This document shows, piece by piece, positions 5,485 through 8,943 of a DNA stretch of 64,000 bases (positions within the stretch are counted from its first letter, which is position 1; each line of letters begins with the position of its first letter). The notes beneath the pieces are model-generated. The model was not told the origin of the DNA and ran no database searches. It worked only from the letters and a program-made list of their open reading frames with translations. The stretch spans positions 1,178,001-1,242,000 of the forward strand of contig CP012068.1 in NCBI GenBank assembly GCA_001189495.1, given 5' to 3'. The translations under genes were made by a program, and so were the position numbers. The stretch is from Eubacterium sulci ATCC 35585 (lineage in GTDB: Bacteria > Bacillota > Clostridia > Peptostreptococcales > Anaerovoracaceae).

Positions 5485-6222
5485 CTAATATAAATATCCT
5501 GTATCTGGATTGCTATATTCCTTGACACGTTCATCATGCGCTAGGAATATTGAATCTCTAAACGGAATGCTGTAATCTTCTACACCTAGTTCTCCTAGAA
5601 CCTTTTCTAGGTAATTAGGATTCATTATAAGTAGTGGTCCTAGCGTATATGTACCCCTAAAACCCTTGTGTTTGATACCTTCTATAGAAATGTCCTCATT
5701 TAATCCCGGCCCTCTTAAAACCTTAAATAAAGGCGCTATATCCTCTCTATAAAAGCTACGTGTAAACTGGCTTCTAAGCCCCGTAAGCTTTTCGCCCTCG
5801 TACTCTCCTAGCCATAGAGAATTGTACTTGTTAATCATGTCTCTTTCTGTATCAAAGTTAAATATTCCAAGTCCCTCTAGAAAAGGTCCTCCATTTTCCT
5901 CAAATACAAATTTACCAACATCCTTTATTCCATTACCGAAAATCTCTAGAGCATTTCCGGTAATAAGTAAGTTCTGACCAGCTTCTATCTTCTCGATTAT
6001 TTTATTTTTATATTTTTTTAGTCTTTCGATTACAATTTTCTGACTTAACTCAGTCATAGAGCCCATGTAAACAAGGTCTATTTCCTCGCTTAAAAAGCGT
6101 GGTTCACTATTAAGAGAGGTACTGATAACTTCAGCATTTATAACCGATCTTTTTAAAATATCTATATTTGCATGGTCTCCAAAAATACCTGTGATCTCTG
6201 GAAATAAATATTCTATCTTCAT
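5485..6222 (-). CDS. gatD: GatD-family subunit of lipid II isoglutaminyl synthase, catalytic residues missing
   Basis: A 245-residue homologue of GatD, which in Staphylococcus and Streptococcus releases ammonia from glutamine so that MurT can amidate the D-Glu of lipid II. Family features are EGLGIFNFDTE and GTYTLGPLL near residue 200. The nucleophile elbow, CGGYQ in the family, is replaced by a segment ITGNALEIFG, the whole protein contains no cysteine, and GTYLHGP has become GTYTLGP, so the catalytic histidine is lost too. ATG 6222 with GGGAGAT before it is chosen over an upstream start at 6282 that would overlap murT. It lies 13 bases after murT. Glutaminase activity is not expected; a structural role is inferred. 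Confidence 0.85.
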   Translation of the reverse strand: MKIEYLFPEITGIFGDHANIDILKRSVINAEVISTSLNSEPRFLSEEIDLVYMGSMTELSQKIVIERLKKYKNKIIEKIEAGQNLLITGNALEIFGNGIKDVGKFVFEENGGPFLEGLGIFNFDTERDMINKYNSLWLGEYEGEKLTGLRSQFTRSFYREDIAPLFKVLRGPGLNEDISIEGIKHKGFRGTYTLGPLLIMNPNYLEKVLGELGVEDYSIPFRDSIFLAHDERVKEYSNPDTGYLY

Positions 6223-6235
6223 AAATCTTATCTCC

Positions 6236-7612
6236 CTACTGTACTTTGCCAGCTGAAAATCTTTCTCTAATAGCATCTGCAATCTTTAGACCCTTATCTA
6301 TTACATCAAGGTCATATAAAACATAAATCAAGCTGTCATCAATATACTCAAATAGCTCAATTGCGTCTTCTGCCTTTTCAACAACTTTAATTTTTTCCTC
6401 TGGAACTCCGGCAAGAAGTAGTCTCACCTTATAGTCCAACGCCCTTGTCCCGTAAACAATAATGCTATGTAAATAATCATCTGCTATAAACTCAAAATCG
6501 GTGTCGTAAATCCAGCAAATATCTTCTGACCAGTGGATTTCAGCATCTATTGAGTTAACCATAAATAGAATCTGCTTCTGCTTCTTTTGCTTTGCAATAT
6601 ACTCCATTACTCTTGATGTAGCATATCCGTTCAGACACTTTGACAGCATAGTGATAACCTTCATGTCTCCAGCATCCTGTGAGTTATATCTCGTTTTCGC
6701 AAGTCCCATAGTCTTTAGACATTCTGCAATCTCTGCTAGTGAATATCCCATCTCATGAAGTAGTGTCATAGCAGATAACTGATTGTAGATATTGAATACA
6801 CTATCATTTAATATTACTACTCTCTGACTTTCTCCTTTTGCCACAAAGAGCATTTCATTATTATCAAAATCAACTTCATCTAGATAATAATCATATTCTG
6901 GCGATTTATATCCACAGGCATCGCAATAGATTTTTCCTATGTTACTATAACGATAATACTCAAACTTGATTTTCTCTCCACATACAGGACAAATCTGCAC
7001 GTCATTTATGATGTTATTGCTATCTTGCCTGTCACCTTCCATCTTTTTGATACCGAAATATGTTCTTTTGTTCTTAGGTGATACAGAATAAGCATTGTAA
7101 TCATCTGCATTGCAAATCAGCTCTGTGGTTTCTGGTATAAACGTGGTTAGAACATTTCTTACAAATTCAGGATGACCAGTTCTCATTATTGAATCTCTAG
7201 ACAAGTTGCAAACCACAAGCTTATCTATATCCATCTGTGAGCCAATAAATCTCATTGAACGCTCATCCATCTCAAATACAGCAAGCTCATATTTGCACTT
7301 TCCGAAGATACCAGTAGACTTTATCAAAGAAGTCGCTATACCCGTATGTGTATTTGATCCATCTCTATTTGTTATAACCTCTGTGCCTAGAGTGGCTAAC
7401 ATATCTGAAATAAGGTTCGTTGCCGTTGTCTTACCGTTAGTGCCTGTAACTCCTATAATAGTTTTCGGCTTTTTTGCATATCTCAAGAAACCAGGGCATA
7501 TTCTAAATGCAACTATACCTGGAAAGTCAGTTCCCTTATATCCAAATACCTTTAGCGCAATTATAGCGAGCTTTGCTACGCAAAGTGCAACAAAATACCT
7601 GATTCTATTCAT
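6236..7612 (-). CDS. murT: MurT, Mur-ligase-type subunit of lipid II isoglutaminyl synthase
   Basis: A 458-residue Mur-ligase homologue without the UDP-binding N-terminal domain, as usual for MurT. It has a hydrophobic N-terminus, the ATP loop GVTGTNGKTTATN near residue 54, the DERSM segment, a four-cysteine zinc ribbon (CPVCGEK and CDACGYK, residues about 209-235) and a C-terminal DUF1727 domain. With GatD it forms the enzyme that turns D-Glu into D-isoGln in lipid II at the membrane. The DUF1727 loop VNSIDAEIHWSEDICW departs from the ND..ADG..SW pattern I recall from other MurT proteins, which may go with the altered GatD next to it. First gene of a five-gene run down to the beta-CASP gene. 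Confidence 0.9.
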   Translation of the reverse strand: MNRIRYFVALCVAKLAIIALKVFGYKGTDFPGIVAFRICPGFLRYAKKPKTIIGVTGTNGKTTATNLISDMLATLGTEVITNRDGSNTHTGIATSLIKSTGIFGKCKYELAVFEMDERSMRFIGSQMDIDKLVVCNLSRDSIMRTGHPEFVRNVLTTFIPETTELICNADDYNAYSVSPKNKRTYFGIKKMEGDRQDSNNIINDVQICPVCGEKIKFEYYRYSNIGKIYCDACGYKSPEYDYYLDEVDFDNNEMLFVAKGESQRVVILNDSVFNIYNQLSAMTLLHEMGYSLAEIAECLKTMGLAKTRYNSQDAGDMKVITMLSKCLNGYATSRVMEYIAKQKKQKQILFMVNSIDAEIHWSEDICWIYDTDFEFIADDYLHSIIVYGTRALDYKVRLLLAGVPEEKIKVVEKAEDAIELFEYIDDSLIYVLYDLDVIDKGLKIADAIRERFSAGKVQ

Positions 7613-7713: not shown

Positions 7714-8259
7714 TTAGGCTTCGAAAAGCATATCGCCCCTTACCTCACTAGCTACATCATCATTCTTTAAAATTCTGATGAGTTCGCTTGCAAAATCGCT
7801 AGCATAGGCTGGTCCGCGACCTGTAATGATGTTGCCAGATACAACTACATTCTTCTTTACATACTCTGCATCTATAAGTTCACTCTCCATGCCATCGTAG
7901 ATTGTCGCTTCATGACCTCCTAGAATCCTTGCCTTAGCAAGAGCCATAGGTCCTGCACATATTGCAGCTACATATCTTCCACTCTCAGCAAACTTTCTTA
8001 GTGCTGCTTTACAATCAAAGTGATTGCAGATATTTTCCACACCCTCGTAGCCTCCTGGAACTATGAGCATCTGACAGTTTTCGAAGTTACATTCCTCAAA
8101 GACGATGTCGGCCTCAACTCCAATCCCATGTGAGCCGTATACCATCTTTTCTCTCATTATCGATACCATCTTTATCTGTATTCCGGCGCGTCTTAACATA
8201 TCGACAGTTGTTAGTGCCTCTATCTCCTCAAATCCATTCGCCAAAAAAATATACGTCAT
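7714..8259 (-). CDS. DJ-1/PfpI family protein (ThiJ/YajL-like)
   Basis: A 181-residue DJ-1 superfamily protein. The nucleophile elbow AAICAGPMAL places the reactive cysteine at residue 101, and the acidic partner lies in FEEIEALT near residue 14; both match the DJ-1/YajL group. Members act as protein or sugar-aldehyde repair enzymes (glyoxalase III or deglycase activity) and as redox-responsive chaperones in the cytoplasm. Length is normal. AGGAGAAATC precedes ATG 8259. Its gene begins 9 bases after the membrane-protein gene ends, and is followed by 101 bases before murT in which I see only short inverted repeats and no convincing promoter. Confidence 0.88.
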   Translation of the reverse strand: MTYIFLANGFEEIEALTTVDMLRRAGIQIKMVSIMREKMVYGSHGIGVEADIVFEECNFENCQMLIVPGGYEGVENICNHFDCKAALRKFAESGRYVAAICAGPMALAKARILGGHEATIYDGMESELIDAEYVKKNVVVSGNIITGRGPAYASDFASELIRILKNDDVASEVRGDMLFEA

Positions 8260-8268
8260 GATTTCTCC

Positions 8269-8943
8269 TTAATAAAAAATACGCTCATCCTTGATTAGCT
8301 TCTTGTTTATATAAACAAATATGCCTATCAAAATTACCATTATTATCGTTGCAAAGACCGATACGACCGCCTCAAACGGCGTTCCAATAAGCTCAATCAA
8401 AAGTGACTCCTTACCAGGGCTTACCCCAATGAGTAGCCTATATATGACTTTTCTTATCGCATCTACATTTAGACTAATTGCCATCACAATCTGCATAAGC
8501 ACCGCTAGTGCAATGGCAACATTGTTTGTTCTTTTAAGCTTGCTTCTGCTACCGTTTTTTAGCAGATAAGCATAGCTAAAGATAGATGAAATTCCAAATA
8601 AGAAACATGCGATTGCGCTTATAGTCAGTATTTTCTTTGCTTTTCTCATTACCTCCACTTCTTTTTTCTCAAAGAGTGGATCATTAAACTTGCCGTTCTT
8701 TTCGTATACTTGGAATTCGCTTTTTAACGGTGAGTTGAGATATGAACAAATCTCACTAGAAAACTCTGTACCCGATGTCTTTGTGTTTAGGTTATATGTC
8801 ACCTGCGAATCATTAAAATGGTAGGTATAGGTTTCAGGCACTCTAAGAATAGCATTATAGCTAAAAATCACGATAAAAAACGAAATACTTACGGCAAGAA
8901 TAACATATAAAATATAATTAAGTTTTTTCAATATGCTCTCCAT
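8269..8943 (-). CDS. unknown membrane protein with four predicted transmembrane segments
   Basis: A 224-residue protein with four hydrophobic stretches (about 10-32, 104-126, 142-163 and 188-213) and a polar stretch of roughly 70 residues between the first and second, likely outside the cell. This layout resembles the DUF1461/TIGR01906 membrane proteins of Firmicutes but I see no motif that proves it. Ends are basic, fitting cytoplasmic placement. It starts after the hpt terminator and is followed closely by the DJ-1 gene, so the two may be transcribed together. Function unknown. Confidence 0.65.
   Translation of the reverse strand: MESILKKLNYILYVILAVSISFFIVIFSYNAILRVPETYTYHFNDSQVTYNLNTKTSGTEFSSEICSYLNSPLKSEFQVYEKNGKFNDPLFEKKEVEVMRKAKKILTISAIACFLFGISSIFSYAYLLKNGSRSKLKRTNNVAIALAVLMQIVMAISLNVDAIRKVIYRLLIGVSPGKESLLIELIGTPFEAVVSVFATIIMVILIGIFVYINKKLIKDERIFY

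Follow-up and report, generated by a model that had tools for sequence, protein, structure and literature searches.

MurT and GatD form a cell-wall enzyme pair that normally takes its nitrogen from glutamine. The window analysed here, a stretch of 64,000 nucleotides from Eubacterium sulci ATCC 35585, encodes a pair of this type in which the GatD homologue contains no cysteine, raising the question of what such a complex might do, and with which amine, once its glutaminase site has gone. The features of the pair are as follows:

5485..6222, minus strand: gatD homologue, 245 aa, glutaminase residues gone (translation, phmmer to GatD structures, AlphaFold2)
5635..5655, minus strand: GTYTLGP, with Leu194 replacing the catalytic His of GTYxHGP (hhalign; column without His in 154 of 154 Cys-less GatDs)
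5953..5961, minus strand: Thr88-Gly89-Asn90 replacing Ile-Cys-Gly of the nucleophile elbow (ungapped hhalign; Gly in 149 of 154 Cys-less GatDs)
6236..7612, minus strand: murT homologue of 458 aa that keeps the main ligase residues (MurT_C 83 bits over a cut-off of 25; AlphaFold2; residue counts)
6512..6559, minus strand: MurT loop VNSIDAEIHWSEDICW, where canonical MurT has DNAADGRD with the third triad residue (alignment)
6914..6991, minus strand: MurT Cys4 zinc-ribbon region (Cys208, 211, 230, 233)
7163..7198, minus strand: MurT active-site loop RDSIMRTGHPEF, canonical Glu replaced by His147 (His in 129 of 148)
7427..7444, minus strand: MurT P-loop GTNGKT (Lys in all 148 MurTs paired with a Cys-less GatD)

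The GatD homologue and its former active site

The gatD gene is read from an ATG, with an alternative TTG start that would lengthen the open reading frame to 6282, and its translation bears out the absence of any cysteine claimed in a preliminary description of this DNA. The homology to GatD is not a matter of chance, because a PDB sequence search returned the GatD subunits 9sq9, 6fqb, 5n9m and 6gs2 at the top, with E values of 8e-12 to 1.4e-10; for both window proteins, GatD and MurT, the top matches are their S. aureus and streptococcal counterparts. The protein scores 25.5 bits against Pfam GATase_3 (cut-off 27) and lies below the NCBIfam equivalog cut-offs (54 vs 400 bits and 43.5 vs 450 bits). 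Its AlphaFold2 model (pLDDT 95.2) aligns with the GatD of 6h5e at a Z of 26.3 over 229 residues (rmsd 2.6, 23% identity). Six GatD entries rank first among the fold matches (Z 24.9-26.3), imidazole glycerol phosphate synthase follows far below at 15.9, and the human CPS1 entry 5dou appears at 11.9. Sequence and model together indicate that the protein retains the class I amidotransferase fold and the motifs by which known GatDs dock onto MurT.

Since the window genome has a sole MurT_C match, and its GATase_3 matches elsewhere consist of the high-scoring loci L001 and L002 and a DJ-1 gene, no second, canonical GatD was found there with these two profiles. The genome additionally encodes a 240-aa stand-alone class I GATase-like protein (L259).

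The profile alignment of 26 Cys-less with 17 canonical GatDs (hhalign, 99.8% probability) is free of gaps in the elbow region and pairs the canonical I-C-G-G-Y-Q with T-G-N-A-L-E, placing the catalytic Cys opposite Gly89 and the catalytic His opposite Leu194. The motifs ITGNALEIFG and GTYTLGP, to which attention had been drawn earlier, are both present as quoted, with the refinement that the nucleophile position is Gly89; Thr88 was rejected as a stand-in nucleophile on the strength of this placement. The elbow therefore does not carry the nucleophile Cys of a class I glutamine amidotransferase, and the oxyanion Gly-Gly-Gly reads GSM. The glutamine-capturing Arg is partnered with Lys132 in hhalign, where most relatives have Arg, and the MAFFT alignment of 173 rows has a gap at this position in 112 of the 154 Cys-less proteins.

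These 173 non-redundant GatDs come from the fetched Clostridia loci, after removal of proteins shorter than 200 or longer than 330 aa, low-scoring rows and duplicates over the last 140 residues. Cys is present in 19 of them, all of which have the His, and the remaining 154 have neither residue, a 154:19 ratio that is skewed toward the Cys-less form by the queries used. Because every protein has both residues or neither, the loss of Cys and His is a coupled, two-state pattern without intermediates and not a gradual decay. The nucleophile position of the Cys-less proteins is occupied by Gly (149/154), preceded by Thr in 145/154 and followed by Asn in 140/154; the first, second and third oxyanion glycines persist in 140, 16 and 26 of them, respectively, as against 19/19 each in canonical GatDs. 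Of the 154, 19 have a Cys somewhere between -4 and +8 of the elbow, at scattered offsets and never at 0, and no alternative conserved nucleophile or base emerged at the site among these proteins, which answers in the negative the question, raised at the outset, of whether a substitute had taken over. E4, E9, T88, N90 and R232 are new invariant residues (26 rows). With the nucleophile and base gone, together with two oxyanion glycines out of three, it is well supported by sequence and model that the window GatD should not hydrolyse glutamine, as had been proposed, and nothing found contradicts this.

The MurT partner

The murT gene is separated from gatD by 13 bases on the same strand, and this adjacent arrangement recurs across the fetched relatives with few exceptions (e.g. 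L089 and the contig-end locus L181). The window MurT is below its NCBIfam equivalog cut-off (163 and 184 vs 800 bits); its AlphaFold2 model has a pLDDT of 90.5, and the top 13 PDB rows are MurT chains. The ATP, Mg and acceptor residues and the zinc-ribbon cysteines are present. Conservation was counted in 148 MurT partners of Cys-less GatDs, in S. pneumoniae numbering, with MurTs shorter than 400 or longer than 560 aa left out and 6 of 172 excluded as having no classified neighbour. The P-loop Lys is found in 148/148, the acceptor Asn85 and also Glu108 in 147/148 each, the acidic pair in 147/148 and 148/148, Asp136 in 145/148, Arg140 and Arg304 in 147/148 each, Lys321 in 148/148, and the four zinc cysteines in 147-148 of 148. 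Less conserved positions are Asn270 (Asn in 113), Arg387 (Arg in 107) and Pro323 (30), and the gate between the two subunits is represented by Arg135 (Arg 120, Lys 23) and Asp361 (Asp 128, Glu 18). Because the ATP, Mg and acceptor residues are mostly kept, the MurT half looks, from sequence and model, able to work as an ATP ligase, and the glutaminase half does not look able to perform its own function.

Two loops of MurT, the active-site loop and the specificity loop, are altered. Glu143 is replaced by His in 129/148 partners of Cys-less GatD, compared with Glu in 17 and Asp in 1 of 18 canonical MurTs. The triad Asp column (S. aureus D349) holds Asn in 113, Thr in 14 and Asp in 9 of the 148, and Asp in 18/18 canonical proteins; the window MurT has Asp at this column by MAFFT, with the surrounding DNAADGxD motif gone and a gap there in hhalign. 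The divergence of the MurT loop suggested in the preliminary description is thus real, the canonical DNYADGRDISW reading DAEIHWSEDICW in the window. At the DNAAD site, the loops are specific to clades, including HWSEN, HPTET, PxYTNTFY-like and RKYFTSETSW motifs.

Several unusual MurTs were encountered among the relatives. In genome G006, the catalytic residues of the murT paralogue L010 are degraded (GTNGKD, QIEE) and a second, intact copy is present (L015), and L281, the second MurT of G797, scores 462 bits and contains one internal TGA, possibly as a decaying paralogue. The MurT of L089 (G146) groups beside canonical ones, with no GatD found adjoining it, and an additional Mur-ligase-like open reading frame lies near the pair at L136:6176-7570, L194:8443-9843 and L077:3642-5003.

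Distribution, selection and gene neighbourhood

Titled genome records (473 relatives, 80 of them kept) place the Cys-less form in [Eubacterium] infirmum, Mogibacterium pumilum, Mobilibacterium timonense, Baileyella intestinalis and Alterileibacterium massiliense, and in numerous MAGs with labels such as Oscillospiraceae and Lachnospiraceae; by their taxonomy lines, E. infirmum and Mogibacterium belong to Anaerovoracaceae. Gly occupies the nucleophile position in all 81 GatDs read from these loci (79 of the 80, since L181 stops short of gatD), and the His is absent from every one. A strain-specific loss is ruled out, as E. infirmum, M. pumilum, B. intestinalis and others share the absence of both residues, which answers the earlier query about a clade-wide loss; chance or misassembly is likewise ruled out by the same state in homologues on many contigs. 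Matches to GatD occur in 10/13 genomes of the genus and matches to MurT_C in 76/197 genomes of the family. Within the class, 212/391 genomes have a MurT match, and the 30 loci read among these comprise 28 Cys-less and 2 canonical ones. Across the phylum, a strict E of 1e-97, which weaker Cys-less types would escape, was passed by 3/398 genomes, all in the same class. Judged by these sequences, the Cys-less MurT/GatD is a conserved version present in many Clostridia, well beyond one strain.

Among the copies read from the 102 genomes classified by fetched loci, the two forms do not coexist: Cys-less GatD is the sole form in 83 genomes, canonical GatD in 19, and none has both, a distribution that would be expected from replacement of one form by the other. 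No canonical-range MurT was detected in 13 genomes with titled records, where 17/17 MurT matches reach at least 462 bits and canonical ones elsewhere about 210-325. Two different Cys-less GatDs are carried by 17 of the 102 genomes. The loci L080 (G015), L199 and L173 each contain two different Cys-less murT-gatD pairs at a short distance from one another.

A rapid maximum-likelihood tree (60 rows) separated the canonical proteins, the groups B+C (support 100) and A+A' (support 96, with the window GatD among its members), and the lone row L078; the canonical rows alone have a support of 38, and the tree does not fix the basal order. With L089 and the outgroup left out, the Cys-less state is a single change on this tree, and one or more losses of the glutaminase site are possible. 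Between the window and E. infirmum, NG86 estimates with dS near saturation gave dN 0.053, dS 0.99 and dN/dS 0.053 for GatD, and dN 0.058, dS 1.63 and dN/dS 0.036 for MurT. Both proteins are under purifying selection. As had been argued previously, the Cys-less GatD is not a product of decay, because its dN/dS is about 0.05 and its state marks whole clades.

No constant partner gene surrounds the Cys-less pairs in the fetched loci. An ATP-grasp gene, detected with a profile made from genes beside Cys-less pairs, is next to 45 of 150 Cys-less pairs and to none of the 19 canonical ones; these rows are related, and 11 of the 19 canonical loci have less than 1150 bases upstream. It belongs to PF14397 in all four neighbours checked, and its position is mostly upstream for the A pairs, except in L011, and downstream for the A' pairs and the L242-L248 group. 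PF14397, a sugar-transfer associated ATP-grasp family, was seen upstream or downstream of Cys-less murT-gatD in L127, L157, L199 and others. Neither the window genome nor that of E. infirmum has a match to this ATP-grasp gene, which rules this gene out as an obligatory partner in the window. Directly upstream of murT, a DJ-1/PfpI family gene with a CAGP elbow (7714-8259, minus strand) occurs in the fetched loci, at E <= 1e-10, in window-genome and E. infirmum copies only. A membrane protein at 8269-8943 (minus strand) exceeds the cut-off of Pfam Lit, lipoprotein intramolecular transacylase (30 vs 24 bits).

Regarding the wall type, a meso-DAP wall is likely for the window organism, because DAP epimerase was found in its genome and its MurE (L200:1189-2670) passes one DAP-ligase model (461 vs 373 bits). 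The specificity motif of this MurE reads EEDPRDE, with EDPR instead of the usual DNPR, and GKGDE stands in place of the usual GKGHE.

Candidate reactions of the Cys-less pair

With the MurT/GatD lipid II isoglutaminyl synthase of S. aureus and S. pneumoniae, the residue roles of which are described in the available parts of Morlot 2018 and Noldeke 2018 (PMC6085368, PMC6113224), the window pair shares adjacent genes, both folds, the zinc-ribbon cysteines, the ATP and acceptor residues and the docking motifs. Unlike that GatD, the Cys-less form has lost Cys, His and two oxyanion glycines; unlike that MurT, its partners have mostly lost the triad Asp, the window keeping Asp at the column, and have altered specificity and active-site loops. 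Depletion of MurT/GatD in S. pneumoniae leads to less cross-linking (PMC6085368). Excerpts of Munch 2012 (PMC3266927) state that the S. aureus enzyme uses only glutamine at pH 7.5 and also ammonia at pH 8.5, that MurT or GatD alone is inactive, and that GatD C94G with MurT loses glutamine use and keeps NH3-dependent lipid II amidation at pH 8.5. By analogy with C94G, the Gly at the nucleophile position of the window GatD would be expected to bring loss of glutamine use with ammonia use retained; unlike this laboratory mutant, which uses ammonia only at pH 8.5, the window form is natural, lacks the His and has a rebuilt pocket. Human CPS1, which is ammonia-dependent, likewise retains the class I GATase fold in a pseudo-glutaminase domain after losing the catalytic Cys, its synthetase being unrelated to the window pair.

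The natural C94G-like change combined with the His loss makes an ammonia-fed enzyme with an obligate pseudo-glutaminase the simplest reading, and a glutamine-independent MurT/GatD-type complex, most likely fed by ammonia, is tentatively preferred here, with a confidence somewhat short of even. MurT would still form an acyl phosphate on the D-Glu alpha-carboxyl of lipid I or lipid II, which free ammonia, entering via the rebuilt GatD pocket, would attack. The newly conserved Thr88 and Asn90 and the HWSEN loop of MurT may serve to hold ammonium and remove its proton at neutral pH, and GatD would be retained as an obligate pseudo-glutaminase because MurT, like the S. aureus enzyme, would not work alone. 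Counting against this, a bare scaffold should drift, yet the former glutaminase pocket has new near-invariant residues; a single ammonia-dependent amidase needs no second, yet 17 genomes carry two; Arg135, Asn270 and Arg387 of MurT are less conserved; and the C94G enzyme of S. aureus, in the excerpts available, makes no use of ammonia at pH 7.5 (PMC3266927). The new invariant GatD residues and the clade-specific MurT loops fit an ammonium-binding pocket or a new amine donor alike, and the choice between ammonia and another amine is not settled by sequence and model data.

The main rival, a real possibility if on the unlikely side, is that the Cys-less pairs are ligases for another amine (an amino acid or some other small amine), with the D-Glu alpha-carboxyl or a different carboxyl as the site. 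The loops would then vary between clades because the nucleophile varies, and the DNAAD loop now replaced by clade-specific motifs is the one likened, in the portions of PMC6113224 and PMC3266927 consulted, to the amino-acid-binding motif of MurE. The same portions of PMC3266927 report that S. aureus MurT stood in for MurE in vitro, adding Lys. MurE shares the Mur ligase core, and unlike MurT it acts on the UDP precursor and has an N-terminal domain absent from MurT (PMC6113224, in part). The genomes with two different Cys-less GatDs, the ATP-grasp gene beside Cys-less and not canonical pairs, and the apparently rebuilt GatD pocket also suit another amine; against it, the gate residues Arg135 and Asp361 are mostly kept, which suits a small nucleophile, and ATP-grasp has no match in the window and E. 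infirmum genomes. In the literature searched, no wall chemistry of species with Cys-less GatD was found. Extended further, this rival would make the pairs a Clostridial family of MurT-like ligases acting on lipid II: the glutaminase would have become an amine-binding subunit, the MurE-like specificity loop would have diversified, and clades or paralogues would add different stem amines, a proposal that must be called unlikely as it stands.

The preliminary description had offered free ammonia, another glutaminase or another reaction as options, of which the first and last are uncontradicted and the second is weakened. A separate glutaminase or deamidase supplying ammonia to MurT in trans could be sought in the DJ-1 family gene directly upstream of murT or in the stand-alone class I GATase-like protein, and is improbable given the restriction of the DJ-1 gene to two genomes in the fetched loci and the docking motifs that GatD itself retains. 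Group B walls have 2-4 cross-links through the D-Glu alpha-carboxyl, and a pair linking a diamino acid there would in principle involve the right carboxyl and chemistry; this is highly improbable for the window organism, disfavoured by the DAP epimerase and by a MurE that passes the DAP-ligase model, even with its EDPR motif. Decaying or regulatory pseudoenzymes without a ligase reaction, of which the degraded L010 and the internal TGA in the second MurT of G797 are reminiscent, are equally hard to credit against dN/dS values of 0.053 and 0.036 and catalytic residues (P-loop Lys, Asn85, Glu108, Asp136, Arg140, Arg304, Lys321) each kept in 145-148 of 148 partners.

What appears new, on sequence grounds, is a natural Cys-less form of a known enzyme pair, and no mention of a Cys-less GatD was found in the open-access papers searched, including the accessible parts of PMC6085368, PMC6113224, PMC3266927 and PMC11915815. 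For records with Cys-less GatD, the annotation 'glutamine-hydrolysing' would be wrong. Many of these records come, by their titles, from rumen and gut samples, and D-Glu amidation also alters host sensing of wall fragments. If a family adding different amines does exist, the GatD/MurT label would conceal a new class of wall-branching ligases.
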